The notes under the pieces were generated by a model. That model saw only the letters and a program-made list of their open reading frames with translations. It was not told the origin of the DNA and did not search any database. Shown in pieces: positions 15,863 to 51,265 of a DNA stretch of 58,780 nucleotides. The DNA comes from Candidatus Zixiibacteriota bacterium (GTDB lineage Bacteria; Zixibacteria; MSB-5A5; UBA10806): the NCBI GenBank assembly GCA_024641335.1, contig JAHEDG010000002.1, positions 1 to 58,780 on the forward strand. Direction: 5' to 3'. A program made the translations under genes and the position numbers. Each line of letters starts with the position of its first letter. The stretch's first letter is position 1.

Positions 15863-15880
15863 TATTGTATTATCGATGTT

Positions 15881-15902
15881 CCCCGCGAAGGGGCGTTTTG
15901 TT
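15881..15902 (+). terminator. Weak hairpin with interrupted T-tract before pilM
   Basis: CCCC (15881-15884) pairs with GGGG (15890-15893) around a GCGAA loop and is followed by cgttttgtt. The four-base stem is short, so this is at most a partial terminator or a processing site between the minor pilins and the pilMNOPQ genes. Confidence 0.3.
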
Positions 15903-15930
15903 CGAGAGGTTTGTTAGAGGAAGGTAATTT

Positions 15931-17558: not shown

Positions 17559-17571
17559 GTATGGAGAATAG

Positions 17572-18180: not shown

Positions 18181-18724
18181 AGGACTGGCCACCCTGGTGG
18201 CCGTAGCGTTGGTAGTTTTTCTCGGGTTTTCAATCTATAGAGCTTATGTGGAAATTCCCAAAATGGAAAAGGGAGCTGGCAGTGAAGAGGCGGGTACTCT
18301 TGACGCCAACATGGCGTTAACCGCGACGTTGGACACATTGGAAAATACCTGGATCAGCAGGCAGAGTTTCAAGTTTCTCGTAAACCAGGATCCCCTTCAC
18401 CTTGGCCGGGTCATTAAGGATTTTCAGTATGCTGATAACGGCAAGACTGAAACCGAAGAAGACAACAGCATCAGGCTGACCGCCACGGTAATCGACAGCA
18501 ATCCCAAAGCGATAATCAAATACAACGGCAAGAGCTATGTTGTTCAGACCGGGGATTATCTGGGGAAGAATTACAAGGTAATGACTATTGAAAAGATGCA
18601 GGTGGTTCTCGATAACAACGGCAAGCGGCTGGTACTGATAAACAAGCCTGTTACTACTCTCGAGGACATTCAAAAGGAATCGGAATATTCCAATAACACG
18701 AGTGTTTACGATTACAATTATTGA
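18158..18724 (+). CDS. pilP: PilP-like periplasmic linker, membrane-anchored
   Basis: A 188-residue protein starting with GTG inside pilO. The membrane segment at about residues 11-28 has no lipobox Cys; classical PilP is a lipoprotein, so this one is anchored by a transmembrane helix instead. The C-terminal domain (about 85-170) carries SYVVQTGDYLGKNYKVMTI, close to the PilP beta-sandwich that contacts the secretin N0 domain. Order pilM-N-O-P-Q is conserved. The SD for pilQ lies just beyond its stop. Confidence 0.82.
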   Translation: MNRESLIKGLATLVAVALVVFLGFSIYRAYVEIPKMEKGAGSEEAGTLDANMALTATLDTLENTWISRQSFKFLVNQDPLHLGRVIKDFQYADNGKTETEEDNSIRLTATVIDSNPKAIIKYNGKSYVVQTGDYLGKNYKVMTIEKMQVVLDNNGKRLVLINKPVTTLEDIQKESEYSNNTSVYDYNY

Positions 18725-18759
18725 TCGGGCCGACGTTGGCGCATTTTAAGGAGGAGATC

Positions 18760-20289: not shown

Positions 20290-20320
20290 TTCTTAAGAAT
20301 CTATTATTAGGGAGGACCTT

Positions 20321-23119: not shown

Positions 23120-23138
23120 AGGGGAGTGGGGATTATTG

Positions 23139-24842: not shown

Positions 24843-24922
24843 AATCGCCGGTAACCGCCCTGATGATAATAGCGGCCGGATTAGTTCTGAGCATGGATGT
24901 TAATTTTTTGTGAGGAAGGTGT

Positions 24923-37306: not shown

Positions 37307-38168
37307 GATAGAATATGCCTTCGTGCTGTTTCTGATATTTTTTCTGAATCTTCTGCCTTACAGATTAGCTCTGTTGTTCGGAGATCTGATCGGATTTCTG
37401 GCTTTTTCGGTTTTCAGGATCAGGCGGAAAGTAACGCTCGATAACTTGAAAAACTCCTTTGATGATGGGTATTCTGATTCGGAGTATATCAAAATCGGAG
37501 CCCGGTCTTACCGAAATATCGCCAGGGGATTTATCGAGTACGGTCTGCTGCCGTCGCTCAGCAGAAAAGACCTGAGCCGATTTCTAAGCATTGATGGCGA
37601 AGAGAATCTTCGAAAAATAAGAGAGCTGGGCAAGGGGGCAGTATTGGTAACCGGTCATTTCGGCAGTTGGGAATTGATGGGCGCGTTTCTGAGCCGTCAG
37701 GGTTGGCCGGTCGATTATCTCGTGGGAGAGCAGCATAATTTATCGGTTAACAGGATTATGAACGATCACAGGGCCATATTCGGGATTGGATTGATCGAAA
37801 TGGGAGTGGCTGCCCGCGGGGTCATAAGAGCGGTTCGGGCCGGCCGGATGGTTTGCATGCTCTCCGATCAGGATGCCGGTTCCGACGGTGTAATAGTGAA
37901 ATTTCTCGGTCGGCCGGCGTCAACACCCAAAGGCCCGGCGGCTTTCTCTCTGAAAACCGGCGCTCCTCTGGCCTGCGGATTTATCGTTCGAACCGGCAGA
38001 AAGCAGGTGGTTGTCCTGGAATCACCCATCGAGTTTACACCTTCGGGCAATAAAGACGATGATATCAAGACTCTCACTCAGGCCTATACCACCCATCTGG
38101 AAAGATATGTCCGGAATTACCCGGATCACTGGTTCTGGCCGCACAGACGGTGGAAATCGACCACGTGA
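37272..38168 (+). CDS. lpxL: LpxL/HtrB-family lysophospholipid acyltransferase
   Basis: An approximately 298-residue acyltransferase of the lipid A late-acylation family. The N-terminal membrane span lies at about residues 15-40, the catalytic HX4E motif is HFGSWE, and SDQDAGSDGVIVKFLGRPASTP is the second conserved block, followed by HWFWPHRRWK at the C-terminus, which is characteristic. It adds a secondary acyl chain to lipid A or a related lipid at the inner membrane. Starts at 37251 and 37272 are both in frame; I choose 37272. The stop overlaps the comEC start as GTGA. Its presence supports a lipid A-type outer membrane. Confidence 0.88.
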   Translation: MTVTTTKKIRYKIEYAFVLFLIFFLNLLPYRLALLFGDLIGFLAFSVFRIRRKVTLDNLKNSFDDGYSDSEYIKIGARSYRNIARGFIEYGLLPSLSRKDLSRFLSIDGEENLRKIRELGKGAVLVTGHFGSWELMGAFLSRQGWPVDYLVGEQHNLSVNRIMNDHRAIFGIGLIEMGVAARGVIRAVRAGRMVCMLSDQDAGSDGVIVKFLGRPASTPKGPAAFSLKTGAPLACGFIVRTGRKQVVVLESPIEFTPSGNKDDDIKTLTQAYTTHLERYVRNYPDHWFWPHRRWKSTT

Positions 38169-40480
38169 TCGCCGATTCGGAATCGCTTTTCGCCCGACGT
38201 CCCGCGCTGACCGCTTTGATATTGCTGGTCATCGGGATACTGATCTCGACCGCAGTTAACGCCTATCACGTATTCTCTCTGGGACTTACCTTAGTTTCTA
38301 TATTTACCGTTTTATGGATGTATCTAACGGGAAAAACAAGGGGAGCCGGGATCGCCGCGGCAATATTGCTATTGGCCATAGGATGGTACCGGGCCGATAT
38401 CGCTTCCGGACCGCGTCTCCCCAACCACATAGGCCGTCTGGCTGAAATCGGTGGAATATCCGAATTTTACGGTCGAGTAACCGAGGAGCCGGATATCAGA
38501 AATGACAGAACCTATCTTATTGTGGAGGCCGATTCGGTTTCCGTCGGCGACTTGATGATTCCGACTTTCGGCAGGGTTCGGGTAAAAATCATTAATGGTG
38601 GTTCTCGGTACGATCACGCTGATATTTTGAGGATGACCGGATTTTTGTACAGTCCGCGAGGGGCCAGAAATCCCGGCGGATTCGATTACGGTTGGTTTCT
38701 GCGATCAAAAGAGATTTTCGCCGCCATGTCGGTCAGCGGCCCGCATGCCGTCGCTATTATAAAGAAGGGCGATTCCTTTCTCTCGGTTTTTGTTTCTCCT
38801 TTGAGAGAATACCTGGTCTCGATATCGAAAAGACATTTACCGGCGACATCGGCGGCGATTCTCTCCGGTTTTATCCTCGGCGAGCGGCGCGATATACCCC
38901 AGGGAATTCAAACCTTATTCAGGGATACCGGCACTCTTCATCTTATGGCTGTATCGGGATCCAATGTCGCTATGGTCCTGGCGGTGCTGTCGCTGCCTCT
39001 GGCGCTTTTTCGGGTTCGAAGGAGAGTCAGGGTTATCATTTTGATTCCGGCGATATTGTTTTTTGCCGTATTGACCAGGCTGGAACCGTCGGTAGTCAGA
39101 GCGTCGATAATGGCGGTGATAGGACTACTGGCCTACGGATGGACCCGAAAGCCCGATTACATCAATCTCTTGGGATTCGCGGGTTTGGTCATGCTTCTCT
39201 GGCGGCCGACACAGCTTTTCGATATCGGGCTGCAATTGTCTTTTGCCGCCACATTCGGGATAATTTACGCCGCTCCCCGGATCGCGGGGTGGTTTTCATT
39301 TTTGGACAAATACCATCTGGTCTGGCTGCGATGGTTTATTTCCCTTTCTCTGGCGACCCTGGCCGCCCAGGCGGCCGTTTTGCCGTTAATTGCCCGCTAT
39401 TTCAACAATATACCGATATCGGGGCTGGCGGCCAATATACCGGTAGGACTGTTGGCCGGTTTTTCCACCAGTTTCGGAATTCTTTTTTACTTTCTATCTG
39501 TTTTCGGCGACTGGATGGCCAACCTGACAGCTATCCCTTTGCGTTTTATTCTGGATTGGGTAGTGTATCTTCTAAGGTTCTTTTCGACATTGCCTTATGC
39601 CAACATCAAGGCTCCGTCCCTAAGCTGGCCGGCGGTTGCCGCTTATTGGGCAATTTTATATATGACCTATGAATATACTGTCAATCGACGATTAAGCGGG
39701 AATAGTATTATCGCCGGGCTTCTATTCCTTAATGTTACAATCTGGCAGTATTATTTTACCGAAAATCCTGAATGGAAGATCGATTTTATCGATATCGGGC
39801 GGAACCGAGGCTGGATTTTTACCGGGAATGACGATAAGGCCATAGCCTGTTTTGACCTGTACGATACCGATGATGCCGCGGACAGGGTTTTGATACCGTA
39901 TCTTTACAGTTACTATGGCGGCCGGTTGGATTATCTTCTGACATCAACTCCTGGTTCTCCACAAATCGGCGAACTGGTTCGATATTTTTCTCCTATTGTC
40001 TTTTCCGTCAATGATTTGTCCCAAACGAACCGGGGTCCGGAAATTGGCAGAAGCGAAAATCAGTCAGCCCTGCCTGATTACGTTAAGGTTGTGTGGGGAG
40101 AATCCGATAATAAAGATGACGGGAGTTATGATTATCCCGGTATACAGATTAATACTAATGATGGTGTGTTAATTATGACCGCGTGGATGGGTACGGAAAT
40201 TTTAAAAGGCTATCATCCGGAAGAAAATATAAAACTTCTGGAAATGTCCTGGAGCGTTTACGCCCAGAGTCGGGGCAAAATGATAATCGATGATCTCGAT
40301 CCTGAAGTCGTTGTTTTTTCTCCCGATCGATATTCTGTGGCCATGCCACGTGACCGCGCCCAATTAACCCACAATCAAAACCGGGTCTATTCGACTTCGA
40401 TCTGCGGTGGATTCGAGTTTTCTTACGATGGCCGTATAACTCGAATAAGAATGATGAAACCGATTTTAACCGAGGAGTAG
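38165..40480 (+). CDS. comEC: ComEC/Rec2-family DNA-internalisation channel with degenerate C-terminal domain
   Basis: An approximately 771-residue protein: N-terminal membrane spans, an OB-fold/DUF4131-like soluble region (about 80-200) and the Competence domain with LHLMAVSGSNVAM near residue 260 and about eight more spans. The C-terminal part (from about residue 535) aligns with the metallo-beta-lactamase-like nuclease domain (DFIDIGRNRGW for the usual FxDVGQGD), but the metal motif HxDxDH is replaced by LTSTPGSPQIGEL. A GTG start at 38165 overlaps the lpxL stop; GTG 38150 is an alternative. ComEC passes single-stranded DNA through the inner membrane during transformation, consistent with the surrounding pilus genes. 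Confidence 0.85.
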   Translation: MIADSESLFARRPALTALILLVIGILISTAVNAYHVFSLGLTLVSIFTVLWMYLTGKTRGAGIAAAILLLAIGWYRADIASGPRLPNHIGRLAEIGGISEFYGRVTEEPDIRNDRTYLIVEADSVSVGDLMIPTFGRVRVKIINGGSRYDHADILRMTGFLYSPRGARNPGGFDYGWFLRSKEIFAAMSVSGPHAVAIIKKGDSFLSVFVSPLREYLVSISKRHLPATSAAILSGFILGERRDIPQGIQTLFRDTGTLHLMAVSGSNVAMVLAVLSLPLALFRVRRRVRVIILIPAILFFAVLTRLEPSVVRASIMAVIGLLAYGWTRKPDYINLLGFAGLVMLLWRPTQLFDIGLQLSFAATFGIIYAAPRIAGWFSFLDKYHLVWLRWFISLSLATLAAQAAVLPLIARYFNNIPISGLAANIPVGLLAGFSTSFGILFYFLSVFGDWMANLTAIPLRFILDWVVYLLRFFSTLPYANIKAPSLSWPAVAAYWAILYMTYEYTVNRRLSGNSIIAGLLFLNVTIWQYYFTENPEWKIDFIDIGRNRGWIFTGNDDKAIACFDLYDTDDAADRVLIPYLYSYYGGRLDYLLTSTPGSPQIGELVRYFSPIVFSVNDLSQTNRGPEIGRSENQSALPDYVKVVWGESDNKDDGSYDYPGIQINTNDGVLIMTAWMGTEILKGYHPEENIKLLEMSWSVYAQSRGKMIIDDLDPEVVVFSPDRYSVAMPRDRAQLTHNQNRVYSTSICGGFEFSYDGRITRIRMMKPILTEE

Positions 40481-40485
40481 AAGAT

Positions 40486-41658
40486 TTGAGTTTCGCCGGG
40501 AATCTAAAGACAGTCTCATTGCCCGATATGTTTCAGTTGATTTTCTCGTCGAAGATGACGGGGAATCTGACAGTCAGCAAGGAAAAAGCCAAGAGGCAGA
40601 TATTCTTCCGAAACGGCATGCTAATCTATGCCATGTCCACCGACGAGCAGGATCTATTCGGCAACATTCTTTTAAAAAAGGGCCGGATATCGCGCGAGGA
40701 ACTAAACAAGGTTCTGGTCGGACAAAAAGGCGGGAAGAAAATCGGGGCTATTCTGGTCGAGAAAAATCTGTTTACGCGCGAGGAAGTAATAGATTGTCTG
40801 AAGATTCAGATCGAAGAGATTGTATACGGGTTGTTTGGGTGGAAAGACGGTGAGTTCGAATTCCATCAGGGGCAAACTCCTCCCGAAGACGCTATCCAGA
40901 CCGAAATCAATCCGATGAATATTATAATGGAGGGAACTCGCAGAATTGACGAGTGGGAGGAATTGAAAAAAGTCCTGCCGAGCGATTCCACTCCGGTAGA
41001 GCTGGTGCGAGATCCGATTATCAAATCGGGCGAATTGAAGCTCTCCAAGAACGAGATTGTGGTCATGGCCATAATTGGATCCGGAAAAAAGATATCGACG
41101 ATTCTCGAAGAGAGTTTCCTGGATCGGTTCCTTACCAGCAAGGCATTGGCCAACCTGCTGAGAGACGGCCTGATCACGACATTAAAGGAAGTGGTGGAGG
41201 AAAAATCGGCCGAACACGAACAGAAGGCGCTGGCTGAACTTCTGGCGCAAATCTATCTCGGCAATCTGAATTATATATTTGAAAATCTAAAGGAAAAGCT
41301 GGGCGGCAAGGGAGATAAAATTATCCAGGAGACTTTTCAAACTAATAAATCATATTATCCGAATCTGAACAGCAATTTTATCACCGATACCGGCGAGATT
41401 AATTTCGATCTTTTTCTGGAGATGTACAAAAAGCTGCCGCAGGAAGCCCGCATATGGAAAATAGTCTCCAGTTTTAATTCTTTGCTTAACGATTACTTGA
41501 ACACGGTTCAAAAAAGTCTGGGTTCTAAAGTTTATAAAAGATTGCTTTCCGAAGTCAGGATCAATATTCAAAACATCATAAACCGCAATAGGCAGTTATC
41601 AGTCAAATACGGGCTCGAGGAAGAATTTTCGAGGATACTGAGGGACAGGGAAAAATGA
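40486..41658 (+). CDS. DUF4388/PATAN-domain protein with an MshEN-like segment
   Basis: A 390-residue cytoplasmic protein, TTG start after gaggag. Residues 1-60 match DUF4388 (SLPDMFQLIFSSKMTGNLTV, QIFFRNGMLIYAMS), the PATAN-type domain found in regulators of pilus motility. Residues about 60-115 (LFGNILLKKGRISREEL, then KKIGAILVEKNLFTREEV) resemble the MshEN c-di-GMP-binding repeat also seen in the two PilB proteins here. The C-terminal half is helical and unassigned. It opens a run of roadblock and MglA genes leading into pilB-pilT-pilC, so I infer a regulator of pilus motors. Its stop overlaps the next start (ATGA). Confidence 0.7.
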   Translation: MSFAGNLKTVSLPDMFQLIFSSKMTGNLTVSKEKAKRQIFFRNGMLIYAMSTDEQDLFGNILLKKGRISREELNKVLVGQKGGKKIGAILVEKNLFTREEVIDCLKIQIEEIVYGLFGWKDGEFEFHQGQTPPEDAIQTEINPMNIIMEGTRRIDEWEELKKVLPSDSTPVELVRDPIIKSGELKLSKNEIVVMAIIGSGKKISTILEESFLDRFLTSKALANLLRDGLITTLKEVVEEKSAEHEQKALAELLAQIYLGNLNYIFENLKEKLGGKGDKIIQETFQTNKSYYPNLNSNFITDTGEINFDLFLEMYKKLPQEARIWKIVSSFNSLLNDYLNTVQKSLGSKVYKRLLSEVRINIQNIINRNRQLSVKYGLEEEFSRILRDREK

Positions 41659-42020
41659 ACAGGCTGACAGCCATAGCGACCGCGTTTTTCGTTCTGATAA
41701 ACTACAACTTGAGCTGGGCAATTTCCACATACGCGTACAACCTGGTTCAGGAGTCGCTGTTCTTATTATTTACCTCAGGATGTCTGGTCATCGCCTTGTT
41801 GATTTATCTCTCTTTGAAGGGGGGAAGTCTCGGAAATCCCTGGATCTTTATCGTGGCCGGATTCGCTTTCGCGGCAGTCGGAGGGATAATTAATCTTCTG
41901 GATGTAATTGGAATTTTCGTCCATGAATACGATCTTCGGCCGGCTAATCTGATAACAGCTTGTGGTTCAATGCTTTTACTGCTTTTAGGGCTTCTGCTCT
42001 ATAAAAGGAACCTGGATTAA
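41655..42020 (+). CDS. Small four-span membrane protein, hypothetical
   Basis: A 121-residue protein with four hydrophobic segments (about residues 4-22, 31-53, 60-86 and 95-115), short loops and a basic end. No family recognised. The ATG overlaps the stop of the DUF4388 gene as ATGA, so the two are translationally coupled, which suggests that this protein is its membrane partner. It is followed by a 78-base gap with no clear terminator or promoter. Confidence 0.6.
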   Translation: MNRLTAIATAFFVLINYNLSWAISTYAYNLVQESLFLLFTSGCLVIALLIYLSLKGGSLGNPWIFIVAGFAFAAVGGIINLLDVIGIFVHEYDLRPANLITACGSMLLLLLGLLLYKRNLD

Positions 42021-42098
42021 TTCTCTTGGATAATCTCTAAATTTCCCCGGCAATTTGTCGATAATTTATATGATTGAAAGCTACTTATAAGGATTGGT

Positions 42099-42938
42099 AT
42101 GATCGACTCGTTAGAACTTGAAGACCGAATTTCCAAATGCGAAAAAATACTGGCTTCGGATAAGAACAGCCAGATTTTCGCCGCATTGGCCGACGCCTAT
42201 CGCAAGAAAGGTGATGTCAATAAGGCTATGGAGGTATGCGTTCAAGGATTGAAAATTCATCCTAAATACGCTTCGGCGAGGGTGGTCATGGCCAAGATAT
42301 ATATGGCTAGAAAAGATTACGATTCCGCCAAGAAGGAATTGAATCTGGCCATAGAATCGTCGGGGCGCTCCAGAGCCATAGATATTCTGGATGCTGAAAT
42401 ACTGATACACAGCGGAAGGCACATTAACGCCAAAGCTATTCTGGATAGGTTGTACGCCTCGGAACCGGAAGATGAAACGGTTAAAAATCTGCTTGCGATG
42501 CTGGCGGAATTAAAGGGCGAACAAGTTCACAGCCCGGCTCCGTCTTCACCAGCGAATGATCATCCCCCGGAAAGAGAATTAAGTTTGGCGGATATGGTGG
42601 GGATAATAAAAGTAATGCCGAGAGTTCTGGGGGTAGTGGCCATCAACGATTGCGGACTGGTTCTGGAAGGTCGGTTTGACGGTTCTGTATCGCATGAAAT
42701 TGCGGCGGCCTTATCGCGGGGAATTTTCGAGGTAATCTCAATCGGCTGCAACAGGATCAATCTTGGCGTGACCAGAGAGATTCTGATCGAGTCGCCGTCG
42801 TCAAAACTCTGGATATTCAACAAGGGGAATATCCTTTTGGCGATATTTGCCAGGGATGATGTCAGCATCGGTTCTTTGAAATTAAAGATAGATGAACTAT
42901 CGCAGAAACTGGAAAGTCACGCTGGAACAGCCGGATAG
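42099..42938 (+). CDS. TPR-roadblock/LC7 fusion protein
   Basis: A 279-residue cytoplasmic protein. Residues about 20-135 form three to four tetratricopeptide repeats (for example QIFAALADAYRKKGDVNKAM and ARVVMAKIYMARKDYDSAK). A Pro-rich linker (about 145-160) leads to a roadblock/LC7 domain (about 165-275; VLGVVAINDCGLVLEGRF). Roadblock proteins such as MglB bind and regulate Ras-like MglA; in Myxococcus the TPR protein SgmX is the MglA effector that promotes pilus formation. A fusion of both modules beside an MglA gene suggests a direct role in this G-protein switch. The function is an inference. Confidence 0.75.
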   Translation: MIDSLELEDRISKCEKILASDKNSQIFAALADAYRKKGDVNKAMEVCVQGLKIHPKYASARVVMAKIYMARKDYDSAKKELNLAIESSGRSRAIDILDAEILIHSGRHINAKAILDRLYASEPEDETVKNLLAMLAELKGEQVHSPAPSSPANDHPPERELSLADMVGIIKVMPRVLGVVAINDCGLVLEGRFDGSVSHEIAAALSRGIFEVISIGCNRINLGVTREILIESPSSKLWIFNKGNILLAIFARDDVSIGSLKLKIDELSQKLESHAGTAG

Positions 42939-42949
42939 GAGAGTCTGGA

Positions 42950-43396
42950 TTGAAAGGACCAAAAGAAAACGATAAATTCCAGATGGCCGTTAACTACGTA
43001 GCGGAATATTCTGGTGTCAAGGGATCGGTGATCACCGATCATGACGGTTTGGTGGTCGCCTATGGCCCGGCTGTAGGAATGGATAGTGAACTGTACGCCG
43101 CTCAGGGTCTGGAGATAGTCAATTCGATTAACAAGAGTGTCGCCAAACTTGTCAAGCCGGGCTGCAGCCATATTTCCATAAAAACAGACCAGGACTGGAT
43201 CACTATCGCACATACCTGCGTTTTCTACCTGATCGTGGCCGCCGACAAACAAGCCGATGATCTGCTTAATGTCCGGATTCAAAGGGCCCTCGAGATGATA
43301 TCAAGTCATGTGAAAGAAAAATACCCGACTGTTTCGACGCTGACGAAGCCGGTGTCGACAGGTTCGAAAAATAATTTGGAGGCATCTCATGTATAA
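42950..43396 (+). CDS. Roadblock/LC7 domain protein
   Basis: A 148-residue protein with a TTG start; most of the chain is a roadblock/LC7 domain (VKGSVITDHDGLVVAYGPA, then YAAQGLEIVNSINKSVAKL and TCVFYLIVAADKQAD). A C-terminal Ser/Thr/Lys-rich tail of about 30 residues follows. It overlaps the next roadblock gene by eight bases, so the two are probably made together and could heterodimerise. It is one of four roadblock domains around a single MglA-like GTPase. Confidence 0.75.
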   Translation: MKGPKENDKFQMAVNYVAEYSGVKGSVITDHDGLVVAYGPAVGMDSELYAAQGLEIVNSINKSVAKLVKPGCSHISIKTDQDWITIAHTCVFYLIVAADKQADDLLNVRIQRALEMISSHVKEKYPTVSTLTKPVSTGSKNNLEASHV

Positions 43397-43727
43397 TATT
43401 TTGGGCGATTTGAACAAAACTACCGGTATCAAAGGTTCGATGCTGGTGGGTAATGACGGTATAATTATTGCCGCCGATCTGGACAGTCAACTCGAGGATG
43501 AAACGGTCGGCGCCCTGGCGGCTTCGATTGTTTCCAACGTCTCCAAGGCTATGGAGCGGCTCAACCAGCATAATCCAGACAGGATTACGATCGAGGCGGA
43601 CGAGGGGAAGATATTCCTTAATGACGCCGGAATGGGTATCCTGGCCGTGGTTACCGATCCGGCTGTTAATGTTGGTATGGTCAGGTTGGAAATTAAAAAC
43701 GCTATTTCCAAGATCAAAGGACAGTAG
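43389..43727 (+). CDS. MglB-like roadblock/LC7 domain protein
   Basis: A 112-residue protein that is a minimal roadblock domain: TTGIKGSMLVGNDGIIIAAD, AASIVSNVSKAMERL, ITIEADEGKIFLNDAG, and ILAVVTDPAVNVGMVRLEI. Size and sequence are closest to MglB, the GTPase-activating partner of MglA in Myxococcus and Thermus. It lies 15 bases upstream of the MglA-like gene, the same mglB-mglA order seen in those organisms. I therefore regard it as the best candidate for the GAP among the four roadblock proteins. Confidence 0.8.
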   Translation: MYNILGDLNKTTGIKGSMLVGNDGIIIAADLDSQLEDETVGALAASIVSNVSKAMERLNQHNPDRITIEADEGKIFLNDAGMGILAVVTDPAVNVGMVRLEIKNAISKIKGQ

Positions 43728-43742
43728 AAGGGACCTTAACCG

Positions 43743-44882
43743 ATGGCATCGATAAATTACGCGCATAAAGAGATCATCTCAAAAATTGTGTATTACGGTC
43801 CGGGGCTTTCCGGGAAGACGACCAATTTGCAGTTTGTCTTCAAAAAAATACCGGCCGAAACCAGAGGAGAATTGATCAGTCTGGCAACCGACGCGGACAG
43901 AACGCTGTATTTCGATTTCTTGCCGGTAAATGTCGGTTCGATCCAGGGATTTGCCACCAAATTTCAGCTGTACACTGTCCCCGGCCAGGTCTATTATAAC
44001 GCCACCCGAAAGCTTGTACTGCGAGGTGTTGACGGTGTCGTGTTCGTAGCGGATAGTCAAAGAGAAAAAGCCGACGAAAATGTCGAATCGCTTCAAAATC
44101 TCAAGGATAATCTCGAAGAATATGGCTATGATATCACTACTATTCCACTGATAATTCAATATAACAAAAGGGATCTTCCCGGAGCGATGGAATTGGCTGA
44201 CCTGGAGAAACTTCTAAACCCGCAGGGATGGCCGTATTTCGAGGCGGTGGCCTCGACCGGCGATGGGGTTTTCAAAACCCTGAAGGCTATCAGCAAGCTT
44301 GTTCTGGAGCAGATCCGTACTAATAAGATGGGCGCCCCGAAGACTGTCAAGGCGGAGCCTGTGGCGGTTGGCGCGGCTGTTGGAGGAAGTTCGGCAGCCG
44401 CGGCTCCTATGGAACCGGAGCCGGTATCGCCTCCTCCTCCGGTGGCTGCTCCCGAACCAGAAACTCCGGAACAGGAAAGCGAAGTGGCGGGGATTGTCAA
44501 AGATTCCGACACCATGGCCAACGTGGTCGTTTCGGATTCACAGGCATTACCCGAAGCAGTTGAAGATAACGCCGATAATACGGAAGAAACTACCGAAAGA
44601 TCGGTTCTAAAAGAGGTCAGTCTGGACAACGGCGAATCAGGGGATTCGGAAGAAAGGTCCGGAAACGCGGCCGATGATGATTCCGGGGAAATATCCCGAG
44701 GGCCGATATACGGCACTATCGACGACGGCAATTCATTTGATGAAGAGGCCACCCAGCTTTCAAATTTGAGCTTGAAAAATCCTCTGTCGCTGGCTAAGCC
44801 CCAGATGGCTGAGAGTCGCAAGGTCAAAGGGAAGAAGGGAAAGTCAGGTCTTTTCGGTCTGTTCGGAAAATCGAAAAAATAA
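43743..44882 (+). CDS. mglA: MglA-like small GTPase with long disordered C-terminal tail
   Basis: A 379-residue protein. Residues 1-195 are a complete MglA-type GTPase: P-loop GPGLSGKTTNLQ (about 19-30), TVPGQVYYNATRKLVLRG (switch II region), VFVADSQREK and the base-recognition NKRD near residue 142. MglA proteins normally stop at about 195 residues. Here a roughly 185-residue tail follows: Ala/Pro/Glu-rich, strongly acidic, without predicted folds, ending in a basic, glycine-rich patch (KGKKGKSGLFGLFGKSKK). The acidic body and basic end look like a tether to a membrane, a polymer or a partner. The GTPase assignment is firm; the tail's role is open. Confidence 0.88.
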   Translation: MASINYAHKEIISKIVYYGPGLSGKTTNLQFVFKKIPAETRGELISLATDADRTLYFDFLPVNVGSIQGFATKFQLYTVPGQVYYNATRKLVLRGVDGVVFVADSQREKADENVESLQNLKDNLEEYGYDITTIPLIIQYNKRDLPGAMELADLEKLLNPQGWPYFEAVASTGDGVFKTLKAISKLVLEQIRTNKMGAPKTVKAEPVAVGAAVGGSSAAAAPMEPEPVSPPPPVAAPEPETPEQESEVAGIVKDSDTMANVVVSDSQALPEAVEDNADNTEETTERSVLKEVSLDNGESGDSEERSGNAADDDSGEISRGPIYGTIDDGNSFDEEATQLSNLSLKNPLSLAKPQMAESRKVKGKKGKSGLFGLFGKSKK

Positions 44883-44907
44883 TCTGAGGGATACAAGGAG
44901 GTCACCA

Positions 44908-45393
44908 TTGTCTCAGAAACAGCAGGTCCTTTACGAGGATCAAATAAAAGAACTCGATAAGGCTCTTATTCAGATTATAAAAGAGTCCGAGGCGAAATGC
45001 GCCCTTTTGGTGGACAAGGACGGGCACCTGATTACCAGACAGGGATTCACCCATACTCTTGACACCACGGCTCTGGCCGCTCTTTTGGCGGGCAGTTTTG
45101 CTTCCACCAAAGAAATCGCCAGGCTGGTCGGAGAACCCGAGTTCTCGGTATTGTTCCACCAAGGCAAAAAAGATCATATCCATATCTCCCTGATCGGAGA
45201 ACGTACTATTCTGGTAGTCATCTTCGATGATCGTACGACCATCGGCATGATCAGACTTTATGCCAAAGAGGTCGGCGAAACATTATCGGCCATAATGGAA
45301 AAAAGTCCAACCGGACAGGAATCCGAAGTTCAGCTGGGACAGGAATTTTCCGATTCGGCCGACGCGAAACTCGATGATATCTTCCACGAATAA
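44908..45393 (+). CDS. Roadblock/LC7 domain protein, second MglB-type candidate
   Basis: A 161-residue protein, TTG start with a strong SD (aaggaggt, 44897-44904). Residues about 15-130 form a roadblock domain (KCALLVDKDGHLITRQGF, TALAALLAGSFASTKEIARL, IHISLIGERTILVVIF, TIGMIRLYA), with an N-terminal coiled stretch and a short acidic tail. It follows the tailed MglA gene and directly precedes pilB. DNA-level spacing suggests one transcript from the DUF4388 gene onward. A second GAP-like or scaffold role for MglA is inferred. Confidence 0.78.
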   Translation: MSQKQQVLYEDQIKELDKALIQIIKESEAKCALLVDKDGHLITRQGFTHTLDTTALAALLAGSFASTKEIARLVGEPEFSVLFHQGKKDHIHISLIGERTILVVIFDDRTTIGMIRLYAKEVGETLSAIMEKSPTGQESEVQLGQEFSDSADAKLDDIFHE

Positions 45394-45442
45394 CCAGGAT
45401 TAGACAAACCAAAGGCACTTCAAACGGCAGGCGGAGAATTAA

Positions 45443-47137
45443 ATGGCGGCACTCGAACTCGGTAAAATGCTGGTCAAATCCGGTAAGATTACCGAAGATC
45501 AACTTCAACAAGCTCTGACAGTTCAAAAGGAAAGCGGCGGAAAACTGGGTGAAATTCTGGTTAAGGTCGGCGCTGTTCCCGATGAAAATGTCATATCCGA
45601 GTTCATAGGCAAACAACTTAATATCGGCGCTATCCGTCTGACCGATATCGAACTGAATCCGGATATCGTCAAGCTGATACCCGACGATATCGCCAGAAAA
45701 TTCAATGTCATAGCGGTTTCCAAGTTAGGCAAAACCCTGATAGTGGCCATTTCCGATCCTAATAATATTTATGTTCTTGATGCCATCAAATTTATAACCG
45801 GGTGCAATATTCAGCCCGTCATATCGCCGGAGAATACTATTCTGAAGGCGATAGAAGAGCACTACGATGATTCCGGCGGGCTTGGCGAGATCATTAAGGG
45901 GATGTCGGACGAACTGGAGGTCATCGAGGATACAGAGGACGATCCTTCGGATCAGGACCTGCAGTCGCAAGTGCAGGATAAGCCTCTGGTCAAACTGGTC
46001 GACGGTATAATCGCGGAGGCGATCCGGAAGGGAGCCTCGGATATTCATTTCGAATGTTATGAAAAACGGGTTAGAGTCCGTTATAGGTTCGACGGCGCCC
46101 TGACGGAATCGGCTCCGATTCCCTTTAAGTACAGGGCGGCTATTATATCTCGTATGAAAATTATGGCCGATCTCGATATTTCCGAGCGACGTCTGCCGCA
46201 GGACGGTCGCATCAAGGTCAAGCTCGGCGGGCGGGCGGTCGATTTGAGGGTTTCGGTTCTGCCGACGATTTTCGGTGAAAAAGTGGTTATGCGAATTCTA
46301 GATCCCAAGTCGCTCATGGTCGATATGACCAAGCTTGGCTTCCCGGAACTGGCTTTGAAAAATTTCGATAGAGCCATACATCTTCCTTTTGGCATGATCC
46401 TGGTAACCGGACCGACGGGATCCGGTAAAACCACTACATTGTATTCAGCGTTGAAAGCGTTGAATACCCCCGATGTAAATATTATGACCGCCGAGGATCC
46501 GGTGGAGTTTAATTTTGACGGTATCAATCAGGTGGCAGTCAGATCGGAGATCGGATTGAGTTTTGCGGCGGCGCTCAGATCCTTCCTGCGTCAGGATCCC
46601 GATATTGTCATGGTGGGTGAGATTCGTGATGGCGAAACCGCCGATATTGCCATTAAAGCCGCTCTTACCGGCCATTTGGTTTTCTCCACTCTTCATACCA
46701 ATGACGCGGCGTCGACTATCAACAGGCTGATTGATATGGGAATTCCCGGCTATTTGGTGGCCGCTTCCACCAAACTTATTATGGCTCAGAGGATGATCAG
46801 GAAAATCTGCAGCTTCTGCAAGCAGGAGGTACCGGTAACTGCCAATATCCTTGACGCGCTGCAATTGACCAAGGAACAGGCCAAAGATCTTAAAATATTC
46901 GAAGGCAAGGGTTGTGGTCAGTGCAATAACTTAGGGTATTCCGGCAGAACCGGATTGTTCGAAGTTATGCCGATTTCCACGGAGATCGAAAGGATGGTTG
47001 TAAACGGCGCGGCGACATCCGATATAAAAGATCAGGGTGTTAAGGATGGAATGTTATCATTGAGAATGGCCGGCCTGGAGAAACTGAAACTGGGTATTAC
47101 GTCTTTGGAAGAAGTAGTCGCCGAAACCGCCGTATAA
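45443..47137 (+). CDS. pilB: Type IV pilus extension ATPase PilB (cluster 2)
   Basis: A 564-residue PilB/GspE ATPase. N-terminal MshEN-type domain (ELGKMLVKSGKITEDQLQQ, GGKLGEILVKVGAVPDENV), a central linker, and a catalytic core with GPTGSGKTTT, AEDPVEFN, MVGEIRDGETADIAIKAALTG and the zinc tetracysteine (CSFC and CGQC). It is a close paralogue in layout of the PilB encoded at 23139-24842 but clearly distinct in sequence. It follows the roadblock/MglA block and starts a pilB-pilT-pilC trio, so it may be the motor that this switch controls. Confidence 0.93.
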   Translation: MAALELGKMLVKSGKITEDQLQQALTVQKESGGKLGEILVKVGAVPDENVISEFIGKQLNIGAIRLTDIELNPDIVKLIPDDIARKFNVIAVSKLGKTLIVAISDPNNIYVLDAIKFITGCNIQPVISPENTILKAIEEHYDDSGGLGEIIKGMSDELEVIEDTEDDPSDQDLQSQVQDKPLVKLVDGIIAEAIRKGASDIHFECYEKRVRVRYRFDGALTESAPIPFKYRAAIISRMKIMADLDISERRLPQDGRIKVKLGGRAVDLRVSVLPTIFGEKVVMRILDPKSLMVDMTKLGFPELALKNFDRAIHLPFGMILVTGPTGSGKTTTLYSALKALNTPDVNIMTAEDPVEFNFDGINQVAVRSEIGLSFAAALRSFLRQDPDIVMVGEIRDGETADIAIKAALTGHLVFSTLHTNDAASTINRLIDMGIPGYLVAASTKLIMAQRMIRKICSFCKQEVPVTANILDALQLTKEQAKDLKIFEGKGCGQCNNLGYSGRTGLFEVMPISTEIERMVVNGAATSDIKDQGVKDGMLSLRMAGLEKLKLGITSLEEVVAETAV

Positions 47138-47191
47138 GGCTTCAGGCAATGGGAATATGGTCGATAATAGAAAATGAGAGGATAAAAGGTT

Positions 47192-48298
47192 ATGGTAACA
47201 CTGCGGGAATTGCTCGAATTGATGGTCAAACGCAACGGCTCCGATCTTCATATAACGGTCGGCGCACCGCCATTATTCAGAATTGACGGAAAACTGGTCA
47301 AAAGCGAATATGATGTTCTGGGACCGGAGCAGACGAAAAAACTGGCCTATTCCATAATGAGCGAAAGACAAAGACAGAAATTCGAGGAAAACTCCGAACT
47401 GGATCTATCGTTCGGCCTGGAAAACTTATCCCGTTTCCGTTGTAATATTTTCATGCAGCGGGGAAACGTGGCCATGGCCCTTCGCCAAATCCCCTTCAAA
47501 ATACAGACCTTCGATGAATTGGGTCTGCCCGAAGTAGTTCAGAAGCTCGGAGAACTGCCCCGAGGCTTGGTTTTAGTCTGCGGCCCTACAGGATCAGGGA
47601 AATCCACGACACTGGCGGCGATCATAGATAAAATCAACACCGAAAGGAATCTGCATATTCTGACGGTGGAAGATCCCATCGAGTATTTGCATAGACACAA
47701 AAACTCCCTGGTCAATCAAAGAGAGGTCCACGCCGATACCAAGAGTTTTGCCACATCGCTTAAATACGCTCTCCGCCAGGACCCCGACGTGGTACTGATA
47801 GGCGAGATGCGTGATCTCGAAACCATGGAAGCGGCCTTGACCATTTCGGAAACGGGGCATCTGGCGTTTGCCACTCTGCACACTAACTCCGCGGCCGAGG
47901 CCATCAACCGTATTATCGACGTCTTTCCGACCACTCAACAGGAGCAGGTCAGGGTGCAGCTCTCCTTCGTTCTTCAGGCCGTGTTGTGCCAGCAGCTGAT
48001 CCCCAAGATCGGCGGTGGACGAGTTATGGCCCAGGAAATTCTAATCACTACTCCCGCAATCCGGGCAGTGGTGCGCGACGATAAAATCCATCAGATCTAC
48101 TCGCTGATACAGGCCGGCCAGAAATACGGGATGAGGACCATGAATCAGTCTCTTTATGAGCTTTATAGCAAAAAACAACTTTCGCTGAATGATGCCTTCG
48201 CCAGATCGTCGAACATTCAGGAATTAGAGGAAATGATCAGCAGGCAGGGTTCGCCGGCGGACGCGAAAGTCAGCTTCGCGAATCGGAATGAGAGGTAA
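47192..48298 (+). CDS. pilT: Type IV pilus retraction ATPase PilT (cluster 2)
   Basis: A 368-residue PilT-family ATPase: N-terminal NGSDLHITVGAPP, Walker A GPTGSGKSTTL, Asp box TVEDPIEYLHRH, LIGEMRDLETMEAALTISETGHLAFATLHT and C-terminal AIRAVVRDDKIHQIYSLIQ. The AIRNLIRE stretch typical of PilT reads AIRAVVRD here, so it is diverged from the cluster 1 copy, which keeps NLIRE. It could be the main retraction motor or an accessory PilU-type. It is flanked by pilB and pilC with short gaps. Confidence 0.92.
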   Translation: MVTLRELLELMVKRNGSDLHITVGAPPLFRIDGKLVKSEYDVLGPEQTKKLAYSIMSERQRQKFEENSELDLSFGLENLSRFRCNIFMQRGNVAMALRQIPFKIQTFDELGLPEVVQKLGELPRGLVLVCGPTGSGKSTTLAAIIDKINTERNLHILTVEDPIEYLHRHKNSLVNQREVHADTKSFATSLKYALRQDPDVVLIGEMRDLETMEAALTISETGHLAFATLHTNSAAEAINRIIDVFPTTQQEQVRVQLSFVLQAVLCQQLIPKIGGGRVMAQEILITTPAIRAVVRDDKIHQIYSLIQAGQKYGMRTMNQSLYELYSKKQLSLNDAFARSSNIQELEEMISRQGSPADAKVSFANRNER

Positions 48299-48301
48299 CA
48301 G

Positions 48302-49501
48302 ATGCCCATATATGAATATAAAGGGAAAACTCTCAGCGGAAAACAGGTTCAGGGGGAGATAAAAGCCAAAAATAGAGCCGAACTGGAAAGGCTCCTCCGC
48401 GGAAATAGAATTCTGGCTACATCGGTTTCCAAGAAACCGCAGCAGATCCAGCTAAAATTCGGGACGGGAGTCAAGAAGATCGATATCTCCCGTTTTACCC
48501 GTCAGTTCGCCACTATGATTTCCGCCGGTTTGCCCATGGTGCAGTGCCTGGAAATTCTCGGTACCCAGATGGAATCGGCCGAATTGCGAAAAATAATCAT
48601 GCAGGTCAAGGAAGCGGTGCAATCCGGTTCTACTCTATCCGAGGCTCTGAGCAAACATAAGAAAGTATATGACGATTTGTATGTCAATATGGTTGAGGCC
48701 GGCGAAGTGGGCGGCGCTTTGGATACTATTCTTGTCCGTCTGGCACACTACAGGGAAAAGGCCGACAAGCTCGCCAGGAAAGTCAAGGGAGCTTTGGTTT
48801 ATCCTATAGTGGTCATGGTAGTGGCCATTGGCGTTACCTTCGCTATGTTGAGATTCATCGTTCCTATTTTCGCCAAGATGTTCGGAGGATTAGGCGCTGA
48901 GCTTCCCGCTCCGACACAGTTTGTGCTCGGTATATCTCATTTTCTAAGCGATAACACGTTGATCATTCTCTTCGGAATAGTAGTGTTAATTGTGATTTTC
49001 CAACTAGTGATAAGAGATCCGAAGGGTAGACTGGCATTCGACGGTTTCAAATTGAAAATGCCTCTTTTGGGAAGTCTCATCCGCAAGGGAGCTATCTCCC
49101 GGTTCACCAGAACGCTGTCGACTTTGCTCTCGTCGGGCGTATCTATTCTCGACGCTCTGAATATTACCGCCAAAACGTCGGGCAATATGGTTCTGCAGAA
49201 CGCCATCAAGAGATCCATGCTCTCCATTGCCGAAGGCGAGACTATCACCCAGCCGTTGAAAGATTCCGGTGTTTTTCCGCCGATGGTTACTCAGATGATA
49301 TCAGTCGGTGAGAAAACCGGCGGCTTGGACGATATGCTTTCCAAAATCGCGGATTTTTACGACGAGGAAGTCGACGCCGCGGTTGCCGCTCTGACATCGA
49401 TTATCGAGCCCGTGATAATCGTCTTCATGGGAGCCATGATCGGCGGCATATTGATCGCCATGTATCTGCCGATGTTCGATATTATCGGAAAAATCGGCTA
49501 A
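48302..49501 (+). CDS. pilC: Type IV pilus inner-membrane platform protein PilC (cluster 2)
   Basis: A 399-residue PilC/GspF protein with an N-terminal domain (about 1-60), duplicated cytoplasmic domains FTRQFATMISAGLPMVQCL and FTRTLSTLLSSGVSILDAL, and membrane segments near residues 165-190, 215-235 and 370-395. The end GGILIAMYLPMFDI is a family hallmark. It is a second platform protein besides that encoded at 24923-26176, so each PilB in the window has its own PilC. Separated by only three bases from pilT. Confidence 0.93.
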   Translation: MPIYEYKGKTLSGKQVQGEIKAKNRAELERLLRGNRILATSVSKKPQQIQLKFGTGVKKIDISRFTRQFATMISAGLPMVQCLEILGTQMESAELRKIIMQVKEAVQSGSTLSEALSKHKKVYDDLYVNMVEAGEVGGALDTILVRLAHYREKADKLARKVKGALVYPIVVMVVAIGVTFAMLRFIVPIFAKMFGGLGAELPAPTQFVLGISHFLSDNTLIILFGIVVLIVIFQLVIRDPKGRLAFDGFKLKMPLLGSLIRKGAISRFTRTLSTLLSSGVSILDALNITAKTSGNMVLQNAIKRSMLSIAEGETITQPLKDSGVFPPMVTQMISVGEKTGGLDDMLSKIADFYDEEVDAAVAALTSIIEPVIIVFMGAMIGGILIAMYLPMFDIIGKIG

Positions 49502-49517
49502 ACAAAATTCCCGGAGG

Positions 49518-49564
49518 CCGCCCTTTTTTCGAATATTCCATATTCCGAAAAGGGCGGTTTTCTT
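49518..49564 (+). terminator. Intrinsic terminator between pilC and pilS, abutting the next ATG
   Basis: CCGCCCTTTT (49518-49527) pairs with AAAAGGGCGG (49548-49557); the inner sequence can extend the stem with a bulge. TTTTCTT (49558-49564) follows and runs straight into ATG 49565. An SD-like ggagg (49513-49517) lies just before the hairpin and not after it. Confidence 0.8.
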
Positions 49565-51265
49565 ATGAACGTATCAATTAAGCAAACTCCCATAACGATT
49601 ATCAGCCGGAAACCGTGGTTTCTGTCTCTTCGCCTGATTACCACTCTGCTTCTCACGGGGTCGGCCATCGGTTTTTTAAAGCCGAACAATTTCAATTATA
49701 CTCTGCTAACTCTTTACGCCGCTTTCGGATTTCTTTATCTTCTTTACAATATCACCTCGCGCCATTTCTCCGAAGACTACGTAGGGAGCATCGTTATCAT
49801 TCATCTGGCCTGTGAATTGTTGATCGAGGGATTGCTGGTAAATCAGGTGGGAGGGAACTTCTCTCCATTCATACTCTTTTTCATCATCACCATAGTATCA
49901 TCGGCGCCCTACTTTCATCTGATGGGAGCGCTTACTGTCGCCACTTTAGCAGGGCTGCTGTACTCTCTTCCGGTTTTTTTCGATCTGTCGTTTATCTACG
50001 AGGGTCTTATAGAGCCTCCCAAGCTGGCCGGCATGGGGATATCGTCGGATGAGGCCTTTTACACCGTGTTTTTGCATTTGTGTTTGTTCTATTTCTTCGC
50101 GTTTATCTCCGGATATCTGGCCGAAAATCTCTTCTTCACATCCAGAGAACTTTCCAACATCCGTTTCGAAACCAGCGAGATACTCGAGCAGATGCGTTCC
50201 GGCTTATTGACCATCAATTCATCAGGGAAGATAGTCTATTTCAATAAGGCAGCCGGGAAAATTCTCGGGGTCGTACCAGATAAGGCCCGTCAGACCGATT
50301 TGAACGATGTGCTCGGGGATGGGCTGGAAGAGTTGCGATGGCAGATAAACTACGCTTTGAAAGCGGGGAGATCCGAAGCCCGCTCGGAAATAAATATTCG
50401 CACTCCGGAAAAAGGAAAAATTCCTCTTGGGTTATCTTTGTCCATGATCAGAGACGATCAGCGGAATCTCCGGGGTTTGATAGCGCTGTTTCAGGATCTG
50501 ACCGAGGCTAAAAAGCTCGAAGAGAAAATGAGAACATCCGATCGACTGGCGGCGGTTGGGCAGCTGGCTGCGGGAATCGCTCATGAGATCAGAAATCCGC
50601 TGGCTTCTATATCAGGGTCGGTGGAGGTTCTGAAAGACGAGCTCAATCTCGACGGCGACAATCTCAGGCTTTTGCAGTTGATCCTGAAGGAATCATCGAG
50701 ACTCAATACTATTCTCTCCGATTTTTTGAATTTCGCCAGGATAAATAAATTGTCGGCGGGCCGATGCGATATCGCGGCCTGTATCAGGGAGATCATGGAT
50801 CTGATCCCAGGGCACGATCAGATGACTGAATCGATAGAGATCTCCCATCACATACACCGTCCGCTTATCATGGTGGCCGCCAGCGACGATCAGATCAAGC
50901 AGGTTCTCTGGAACCTCATCCTGAATTCCGCCCAGGCTTTAAGAGATCAGGGTGGTCTTATCAAAGTTTCTACCGATGATCATATCGAGACCGACTCGAA
51001 GGAGATGATTAAGATTATTGTGGCCGATGACGGGCCGGGTATTCCCGACGATGTCCGGGGCAGAATATTCGATCCGTTTTTCTCCACCAAAAAGGATGGT
51101 ACCGGTCTCGGACTTCCGATTGTGGCCCGTATTGTGGATTATCTCGGCGGCAAAATCGATCTGGATACATCCCCTGAAAAAGGCACAATATTTACCGTTT
51201 TCCTGCCCAAAGAAATCGCCAGGGAGACGCAAGATAAGATTTTACAAGAAGTTACGCTTGCCTGA
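49565..51265 (+). CDS. pilS: PilS-like membrane sensor histidine kinase
   Basis: A 566-residue kinase: about six N-terminal membrane segments (residues 20-205), a PAS-like domain (about 205-320), HisKA with [17 protein letters not shown] (phospho-acceptor His340), and HATPase with [10 protein letters not shown] (N box), DDGPGIP (G1), FDPFFSTK (F box) and GTGLGLPIV (G2). Six spans plus PAS is the PilS layout, the sensor that controls pilA transcription through PilR. No response-regulator gene lies beside it, so PilR or another partner must be elsewhere. No SD between the preceding hairpin and the ATG. Confidence 0.85.

Follow-up and report, generated by a model that had tools for sequence, protein, structure and literature searches.

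What would a Ras-like GTPase be doing in a bacterium when its gene lies, together with several roadblock genes, directly ahead of the motor genes of a type IV pilus? The question is raised by a Zixibacteria MAG, the source of a stretch of 58,780 nucleotides (here, the window). The sequence-only reading of the window had listed a run of genes from a DUF4388 protein through to a PilS-like kinase. Matches in Pfam and NCBIfam, at the coordinates given below, show that these genes are real, that all are present, and that they stand in the order described. All lie on the forward strand.

The motor genes are the most familiar. PilB (45443..47137), the extension ATPase of type IVa pili, scores 719 bits with TIGR02538, passing its equivalog cut-off of 675.65. 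PilT (47192..48298), the retraction ATPase, scores 498 bits with TIGR01420, above the cut-off. The platform protein PilC (48302..49501) matches T2SSF with 217 bits; its best NCBIfam match, NF052606, falls under the cut-off. A PilS-like histidine kinase (49565..51265; HisKA, HATPase and PAS) follows. A search for PilR beside it yielded no GAFTGA-type reading frame after the kinase in 50 relatives' loci, or anywhere in the window. The motors had been called a second set, and this is correct: the window also encodes a PilT-like ATPase at 12260, a PilB-like ATPase at 23064 (569 bits, under the PilB cut-off), and a PilC/GspF-like protein at 24923.

The conserved row opens well upstream of these, with a ComEC-type competence membrane protein (38150..40480; Pfam Competence, 3.1e-53). 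Just 5 bp separate its end from the start of the DUF4388 (PATAN-type) protein (40486..41658), which matches its Pfam family with an E value of 2.9e-34 and with 118 bits, over the cut-off of 25. Next comes a small four-span membrane protein (41655..42020), recognized from its translation and matching no Pfam family over cut-off. The TPR-roadblock fusion, roadblocks A and B, MglA and roadblock C fill the space before PilB.

Is this row an accident of one genome? Gene order was surveyed in 99 distinct loci of relatives (those with names are nearly all MAGs), where a pair was scored only if the contig had room for it. Throughout the phylum, the row reads ComEC, DUF4388, four-span protein, TPR-roadblock fusion, roadblock A, roadblock B, MglA, roadblock C, PilB, PilT, PilC, PilS. 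ComEC precedes DUF4388 in 77 of the 78 loci that have space for it. DUF4388 is paired with the fusion in 96/96, and the gap between them holds a reading frame with at least two predicted spans in all 96. The fusion is followed by roadblock A in 93/93, roadblock A by roadblock B in 90/90, roadblock B by MglA in 85/85, MglA by MglB (roadblock C) in 82/82, and MglB by PilB in 78/78. Among the motors, the counts are 67/72 for PilB-PilT, 60/60 for PilT-PilC, and 55/55 for PilC-PilS. The outer flanks are rarely kept (LpxL in 9/64, LexA in 4/24). Because the order is kept in 99 distinct loci, chance clustering is excluded. The sequence-only reading had made its case depend on the order being conserved in relatives, and on this point it stands.

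The genome, rated 100% complete, holds one MglA, one DUF4388 and four roadblock domains (E ≤ 0.001), every one of them in the row. Across 49 loci and the window, mean pairwise identity is 75% for the MglA G domain and 71% for MglB, similar to the values of the motors (70% for PilB, 74% for PilT, and 72% for PilC). The fixed row suggests a self-contained Ras-like switch governing the timing and place of pilus extension and retraction. We consider it probable, on balance, that this is a dedicated MglA/MglB-type module, forming one inherited block with the type IVa motor genes of the Zixibacteria and licensing extension and retraction, perhaps for DNA uptake via ComEC.

It might be argued, of course, that MglA and MglB act in cell polarity at large, or in some other process at the cell surface, and have nothing but transcription in common with the pilus genes. 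In Myxococcus xanthus, MglA-GTP stimulates the gliding machinery as well (PMC9481161, in excerpt), and MglA groups 1, 4 and 5 are found in varied neighborhoods (PMC4316618, in excerpt). Here, however, the order is fixed, the module is found at this locus only, and the flanking genes are not kept, which makes such a role quite improbable.

Relatives that have lost genes are also informative. One of them, G010 (one family), lacks exactly the block from DUF4388 to roadblock C, so that ComEC and PilB are separated by about 290 bp. It is nested in the tree, which favors loss of the block, and it retains PilB, PilT, PilC and PilS. Therefore, the motors can exist without the module. A second, G100, lacks MglA, the cassette-type PilB, and any match to ComEC, all together.

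This joint absence would fit a competence-pilus operon, where the module serves DNA uptake (pulling by PilB and PilT, import by ComEC) instead of polarity or movement on surfaces. So would the close apposition of ComEC and DUF4388 in the window and in nearly all relatives. The absence in G100 may, however, reflect one missing contig; G010 has ComEC and the motors without the module; and ComEC shows a mean identity of 27%, against 70-75% for the motors and the G domain of MglA. A module given over to competence is thus unlikely.

How would such a module be switched off? Roadblock C (44908..45393; 49.1 bits in Pfam) matches M. xanthus MglB at full length, over 157 residues (E 4.6e-33, 117 bits), while reaching 97 bits with NF052242, under the equivalog cut-off of 200. 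A terminal LDDIF-type motif is found in 83/83 roadblock C proteins. Two residues of MglB, Asn-37 and Arg-98, serve its GAP activity (PMC11016934); by a hand count in the alignment to M. xanthus MglB, the window's protein keeps the arginine and replaces the asparagine by Asp. Judged by sequence, then, roadblock C is MglB (the GAP), and the TPR-roadblock fusion is not.

The fusion (42099..42938) had been proposed to unite effector and GAP-like modules, and the second half of that proposal is not supported. Its fold, as predicted by AlphaFold2 (mean pLDDT 92.8, pTM 0.58), is TPR plus roadblock, with about four TPRs according to both Pfam and the model. Its roadblock reaches E 7e-4 and 19.6 bits in Pfam, below the cut-off of 23, and its mean pairwise identity of 24% is the lowest of the regions measured except the MglA tail. 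Foldseek ranks an Asgard roadblock and LAMTOR2 (both E 3e-7) ahead of MglB (1.6e-5) as its structural neighbors; all three fall within 2 Z of each other in VIA. The compact G-protein module linked to neighboring motors, which formed the rest of the earlier interpretation, is upheld by the fixed order and by the absence of other MglA, DUF4388 or roadblock matches in the genome.

Two roadblocks remain. Roadblock B (43389..43727) is a stand-alone roadblock (47.4 bits in Pfam) whose best PDB matches are Asgard roadblocks. Roadblock A (42950..43396) scores 24.2 bits against the cut-off of 23 and is soluble in the window; in 84 of 92 complete relatives it is long, with an N-terminal membrane domain. 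When four of the long proteins were scanned, the roadblock match was below the Pfam cut-off in three and missing in one.

The GTPase itself (43743..44882) matches M. xanthus MglA with 264 bits over residues 1-192, its G domain. The P-loop, the arginine-bearing DRT..FDFLP motif and the VPGQ motif with the catalytic glutamine, at what we take to be the positions of MglA's intrinsic Arg and Gln, are present in the window and in 86/86 relatives' proteins of at least 200 residues; the strict G4 pattern QYNKRD is found in 66 of the 86. Roles for the intrinsic Arg and Gln in MglA are described in PMC4316618 (in excerpt). The cognate MglB, roadblock C, accompanies MglA in 82/82 loci.

An MglA usually ends soon after its G domain, at about 195-206 residues: solved PDB chains have 195-203 residues and no such tail, and the plasmid-encoded MglA of Deinococcus ficus has 206. 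The Zixibacteria protein does not. A low-complexity tail rich in acidic residues, Pro and Ser (193-379) leads to a basic hydrophobic tip, and tails of 119-457 residues occur in 85/85 complete proteins, the window's included. The tip shows 45% identity against 15% in the linker (49 loci and the window), and 84 of 85 tips have a net charge of at least +4 and at least two F/W. The C-terminal end of MinD binds the membrane. In E. coli, MinD ends EEKKGFLKRLFGG, and many MglA tips resemble KKRGFFKRLFGIK, a likeness of short segments only; a MinD-like pattern, drawn up after the tips were seen, fits 49 of the 85, the window's tip not among them. Amphipathicity of the tips was not higher than in shuffles of their own residues (p<0.05 in 3/85), in a test that is weak (MinD's own best window is not C-terminal).

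The DUF4388 protein, in turn, carries a four-helix insert (about residues 55-111), a winged-helix-like region (about 161-237), and a helical C-terminal part. In VIA, the insert's three best matches comprise two entries of c-di-GMP-bound PilF GSPII-B and one of MshE: 8pdk (PilF GSPII-B) gives Z 8.9 (1.8 Å, 56 aligned, 39% identity), and 5htl gives Z 8.7 (2.2 Å, 59 aligned, 22% identity), values to be read knowing that helical bundles below Z 13 may share a common arrangement, and that unrelated lyases reach Z 6.5. The predicted fold is the four-helix fold of two 24-residue MshEN motifs. It is backed by the motif pair score, since the window's 16/22 exceeds that of shuffles (7-12); 91 proteins score 11-20. 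NF053729 was passed by four of six DUF4388 proteins scanned (window 37.2, cut-off 38; locus L131 32.8). As for ligand contacts, motif I has His in place of its last Gln in 71/91 proteins (the window keeps Gln); in 81/91, the turn Gly is followed by Lys or Arg. In Thermus thermophilus, GSPII-A also has His at this Gln position, its motif II is degenerate, and it shows no binding (PMC11731258, in excerpt). The insert looks MshEN-like, and c-di-GMP is its putative ligand. Missing from the sequence-only reading were ComEC, the membrane domain that roadblock A carries in relatives, the MglA tip, and this insert.

Could the DUF4388 protein be the real controller, a winged-helix transcription or c-di-GMP regulator whose DNA-binding output is mainly gated by the roadblocks and MglA? 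Its insert and winged-helix-like region (VIA Z up to 7.4) would suit that role. The winged-helix matches, however, are at common-fold level, and the region shows 41% identity, below the 60% of the PATAN core and the 57% of the insert (49 loci and the window). We regard this possibility as very remote.

The module that licenses motors might then work as follows. The long flexible tail of MglA, with its basic hydrophobic tip, would keep the GTP-bound form on the inner membrane. MglB would switch MglA off, and the C-terminal helix of MglB may aid reloading. A heteromeric scaffold made of roadblock B, the fusion, and roadblock A, which has a membrane anchor in most of the phylum, would place MglA, or its effector, where the pilus is rooted. 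In the manner of SgmX in Myxococcus, the TPR face would offer an effector surface for recruiting PilB. The DUF4388 protein, through PATAN core and insert, may tie PilB, and possibly c-di-GMP, to the module. Since the row is inherited as a unit, co-conservation does not decide who binds whom.

A bolder version, possible but doubtful, sees a bacterial counterpart of Ras and Ragulator: a GTPase with hypervariable tail and MinD-like tip, and a complex of four different roadblocks (one TPR-fused, one membrane-embedded), would directly gate type IVa motors at the inner membrane, the MshEN-like insert supplying c-di-GMP input. As in Ragulator/LAMTOR, several different roadblocks and a membrane anchor would surround a Ras-type GTPase; the Zixibacteria complex is a putative one of co-encoded proteins, and the likeness of the fusion's roadblock to its best matches, LAMTOR2 and Asgard roadblocks among them, stops short of orthology. 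This version is rated lower because the MshEN motif pairs of PilB itself (8-16/22) overlap shuffles (7-11), and because Pfam matches in the four long roadblock A proteins scanned are weak or missing. The same overlap makes a c-di-GMP input common to DUF4388 and PilB doubtful in many members.

Among the nearest known systems is that of M. xanthus, where MglA acts via the TPR protein SgmX on the localization of PilB (PMC11580455, in excerpt). Shared with it are the G domain, a full-length MglB orthologue, a TPR protein, and a link to a type IVa extension ATPase. SgmX, however, has 14 TPRs in three functional regions (same excerpt), so that a fusion of about four TPRs and a roadblock falls outside its definition. 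The M. xanthus mgl operon adjoins masABK (PMC3546991, in excerpt), unlike the row here, and the accessible parts of the literature on its MglA pathway mention no comparable row of four roadblocks. Geobacter sulfurreducens has MglB, MglA and PilB, but at separate loci (GSU0098-GSU0099 and GSU1491; PMC2825233, in excerpt). PATAN proteins of Synechocystis are tied to the pilus apparatus, and a title cited in the same excerpt states that PixE interacts with PilB1 (PMC7690835). PATAN genes are known occasionally near MglA (groups 1 and 5) and near MglB homologues (PMC4316618, in excerpt); in the Zixibacteria loci examined, the association is constant and takes in PilB, PilT, PilC and PilS. MshEN domains of MshE and Thermus PilF GSPII-B belong to ATPases, whereas the MshEN-like domain here is inserted in a PATAN protein.

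Even in Myxococcus, where an MglA-type switch reaches PilB, direct contact of SgmX with PilB or PilM went undetected (PMC11580455, in excerpt). Here, the presumed chain lies in one row, and no other MglA or roadblock was found in the genome, offering a minimal, co-expressible and testable set of about seven proteins. The tailed MglA would exemplify membrane tethering of a bacterial Ras-like protein, several different roadblocks around one GTPase may bear on the origin of roadblock scaffolds, and the insert gives a DUF4388/PATAN protein a testable ligand.

The actinobacterial conservon, four adjacent genes for the CvnA kinase, CvnB roadblock, CvnC, and CvnD GTPase (PMC4316618 and PMC13343842, both in excerpt), was considered and rejected: MglA and roadblock C are flanked here by roadblock B and PilB, and three pilus genes precede the kinase.

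Twelve genes, all on one strand, run from 38150 to 51265 in the window: ComEC, DUF4388, a small four-span membrane protein, a TPR-roadblock fusion, roadblock A, roadblock B, MglA, roadblock C, PilB, PilT, PilC, and a PilS-like kinase. From DUF4388 on, this is the order that the sequence-only reading reported. ComEC and DUF4388 are separated by 5 bp, and two gene pairs overlap (DUF4388 with the four-span gene, roadblock A with roadblock B). The source genome, in which the window is contig C19, has 2.86 Mb in 98 contigs and a completeness rating of 100%. At E<=0.001, it holds one DUF4388, one MglA, and four roadblock domains, all four in the row. Of the window's PilB-like ATPases, the one in the row scores over the type IVa equivalog cut-off, and the other (23064) stays below it. 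Scans for promoters (26 vs 18.3 expected) and terminators (20 vs 15.0) are uninformative. No NtrC-type (GAFTGA) ORF is found anywhere in the window, nor after the PilS-like kinase gene (49565-51265 in the window) in the 50 loci with at least 700 nt there, room that is often less than a whole gene.

A second cluster of pilus or secretion type lies about 12 kb upstream of ComEC, at 11828-26176. It contains pilin-like proteins, PilT, PilM, a T2SSC-like protein, a secretin, a divergent PilB-like ATPase, and a PilC/GspF-like protein. Between its secretin and its PilB-like gene, the second one of the window, lies a 932-residue protein (20321-23119). Its domains are of the bacterial Ig-like (Big_1) and invasin D3 types, and it is possibly a pilus-linked adhesin.

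Is the row kept in relatives? Stretches from 40 of 57 relatives and 80 named loci give 120 loci, window excluded, 99 of them distinct when judged by how their TPR-roadblock protein ends. All were selected for holding that protein, and a gene pair is counted only where the contig has room for it. So counted, every module pair is kept: DUF4388 with the TPR-roadblock fusion (96/96), the fusion with roadblock A (93/93), roadblock A with roadblock B (90/90), roadblock B with MglA (85/85), MglA with MglB, which is roadblock C (82/82), and MglB with PilB (78/78). The gap between DUF4388 and the fusion holds a membrane ORF with at least two predicted spans in 96/96. The motor pairs follow, with PilB-PilT in 67/72, PilT-PilC in 60/60, and PilC-PilS in 55/55; the five loci where PilT does not follow PilB are L023, L052, L106, L139, and L140. 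L023, which is the same place as L063, also has a short PilB (493 aa). ComEC stands upstream of DUF4388 in 77/78 (exception L032), and DUF4388 follows ComEC in 80/83 (exceptions L044, L051, and L118).

The outer flanks, in contrast to these inner pairs, are poorly kept (LpxL 9/64, LexA 4/24), and because of this the conserved unit is taken to run from ComEC to PilS. The number of distinct loci and the flank controls together rule out chance clustering. Thus, the conservation of order that the sequence-only reading had made its check is indeed observed. Across 49 loci and the window, the MglA G domain (75%) and MglB (71%) equal the motors (70-74%) in mean identity; roadblock B has 62%, the PATAN core of DUF4388 60%, the DUF4388 insert 57%, and the TPR part 51%.

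A search of the phylum, with 132 genomes that are all from the window's own class, shows where the row is broken. A profile of the TPR-roadblock protein matches in 125/132 at E<=1e-15. Partial matches occur in G075 and G080 (by the roadblock part only), in G061 (weakly), and in G014 (a fragment at a contig end); in G061, G075, and G080 the remainder of the row is present up to the contig ends. Seven genomes give no match. Two of these, G043 and G112, have roadblock C and PilB at contig edges. The completeness of the others is 52% (G019), 77% (G082), 87% (G106), and 96% (both G100 and G010). In G100, MglA, ComEC, and a PilB of the cassette type are all missing, the best PilB match being 43%; this joint absence is either loss or a missing contig.

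G010 is a different case. Here, ComEC is followed, after about 290 bp, by PilB, PilT, PilC, and PilS, with no module gene between them, and no MglA match is found anywhere in the genome. This might mean that the ancestors of G010 never had the block. A PilB+PilC tree, built from 34 sequences of which three are outgroup paralogues, places the family of G010 (f4) as sister to f5 (support 85), nested in a clade with f1 and f2 (100); support is low at several deeper nodes (22, 31, 37, and 37). The other sampled members of that clade carry the module. Ancestral absence is, by this placement, unlikely. Because G010 is nested among module carriers, the block from DUF4388 to roadblock C was probably lost as one unit, while the motors were retained.

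The MglA of the row has a G domain that matches Myxococcus xanthus MglA at 264 bits, and its P-loop, Arg-bearing, and Gln-bearing motifs are present in 86/86. What is unusual is what follows. After residue 192, all 85 distinct complete MglA proteins, window included and six loci cut by contig ends left out, carry a tail of 119-457 residues, whereas the MglA chains among PDB matches have 195-203 residues in all. The one MglA found in a plasmid search (Deinococcus ficus, 206 aa) is also tail-less, with no annotated pilus genes within 8.6 kb.

Mean identity falls from 75% in the G domain to 15% in the linker, and is 45% in the last 25 residues. This tip has a net charge of +2 to +12 (median +8), combines a charge of at least +4 with at least two F/W in 84/85, and is more basic than every 25-residue stretch of the linker in 80/85. 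Many tips resemble KKRGFFKRLFGIK, and are thereby similar to the end of E. coli MinD, KKGFLKRLFGG. A MinD-like pattern, defined after the tips were inspected, matches 49/85 tips and 0/85 linkers; the window's own tip is unmatched. A hydrophobic-moment test for an amphipathic helix is negative, with 3/85 tips beating shuffles at p<0.05. That the tip binds membrane is therefore an inference, drawn from its charge, its aromatic residues, and its conservation.

Which of the four roadblock proteins acts on this GTPase? The sequence-only reading gave a GAP-like role to the TPR-roadblock fusion. This is not borne out. Roadblock C matches M. xanthus MglB with E 4.6e-33 over 157 residues, and is, judged by sequence, the MglB orthologue of the row. 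It ends in an LDDIF-like motif in 83/83; in one account of MglB, exchange activity comes from the helix at its C-terminal end (PMC11016934). The fusion is modelled as TPR plus roadblock (mean pLDDT 92.8). In Foldseek, the roadblock part gives E 3e-7 with both an Asgard roadblock and LAMTOR2, and 1.6e-5 with MglB; comparison by VIA gives close Z values for the three (17.0, 15.9, and 15.4). Four loci (L042, L053, L056, and L060) have a conserved TPR half of this protein but a roadblock half that has diverged strongly.

By sequence, roadblock B matches Asgard roadblocks (E 1e-7) better than it matches MglB (E 0.1). In 84/92 complete cases, roadblock A takes a long form (284-405 aa), and 83 of the 84 have at least two predicted spans; the eight short ones (L022-L029) are all in the families nearest the window, whose own roadblock A is likewise short. 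Relatives' roadblock A proteins were assigned by a profile made from the same family. Pfam gives no family over cut-off for any of eight proteins scanned (four long roadblock A, four four-span), with roadblock matches of 21.5, 19.6, and 15.1 bits in three of the former and none in the fourth. The long form is thus called a roadblock by its family profile.

DUF4388 may contribute a c-di-GMP input. Its AlphaFold2 model has a mean pLDDT of 81 and a pTM of 0.51, and Foldseek with this model gives no match at E<=0.001. By VIA, residues 55-111 align with c-di-GMP-bound PilF GSPII-B (Z 8.9, 1.8 A, 56 aligned, 39% identity) and with MshE (Z 8.7, 2.2 A, 59 aligned). Out of 979 aligned chains, these take the first three ranks, two of them by entries of PilF GSPII-B; lyases are next at Z 6.5, and such Z values may be coincidence for helical bundles. 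The MshE-related family NF053729 is over cut-off in 4/6 DUF4388 proteins, the window's falling short by 0.8 bits. In 91 proteins, the motif pair of the insert scores 11-20 of 22, vs 7-12 in shuffles; the last Gln of putative motif I is His in 71/91, and Lys/Arg stands at a hydrophobic position in 81/91. The window genome has three GGDEF domains.

NF053729 also matches the window's PilB (residues 6-50, 60 bits, cut-off 38). Motif-pair scores in 82 PilB proteins (8-16) overlap those of shuffles (7-11), and PilB as a sure c-di-GMP reader is not upheld. Elsewhere in the DUF4388 model, residues 158-235 are winged-helix-like and match GATOR1-complex chains at Z about 7 by VIA, the same level as unrelated winged helices; in this model, such matches are at common-fold level. 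In one locus (L103:4835-6033), DUF4388 is two ORFs.

How might such a row work? One account of Myxococcus describes a pathway with MglA-GTP, SgmX, and PilB (PMC11580455), and one of Synechocystis links PATAN to PilB1 (PMC7690835). By analogy with these, MglA would be held at the membrane and switched by MglB, the remaining roadblocks would serve as scaffold, and contact with PilB would be made by the TPR protein or by DUF4388. The compact G-protein switch that the sequence-only reading proposed for the adjacent motors survives in part: the row is kept phylum-wide and roadblock C is its MglB, but the fusion as GAP must be given up.

Control of type IVa pili by MglA/MglB is, of course, known. 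Here, it takes the form of a single row, in which an unusual, tailed GTPase is joined by four roadblocks and ComEC. Open-licence literature, in the titles and abstract starts among the matches listed, gives no description of the module, the tailed MglA, or the MshEN-like PATAN insert. PATAN and MshEN occur together in three papers, PMC7690835 among them. A scan with a single pattern for the TPR protein finds 81 relatives; among the 80 listed, most are titled Zixibacteria (Candidatus Zixiibacteriota or candidate division), GN15, or "bacterium," and a few are Ignavibacterium, Calditrichota, or FCB.
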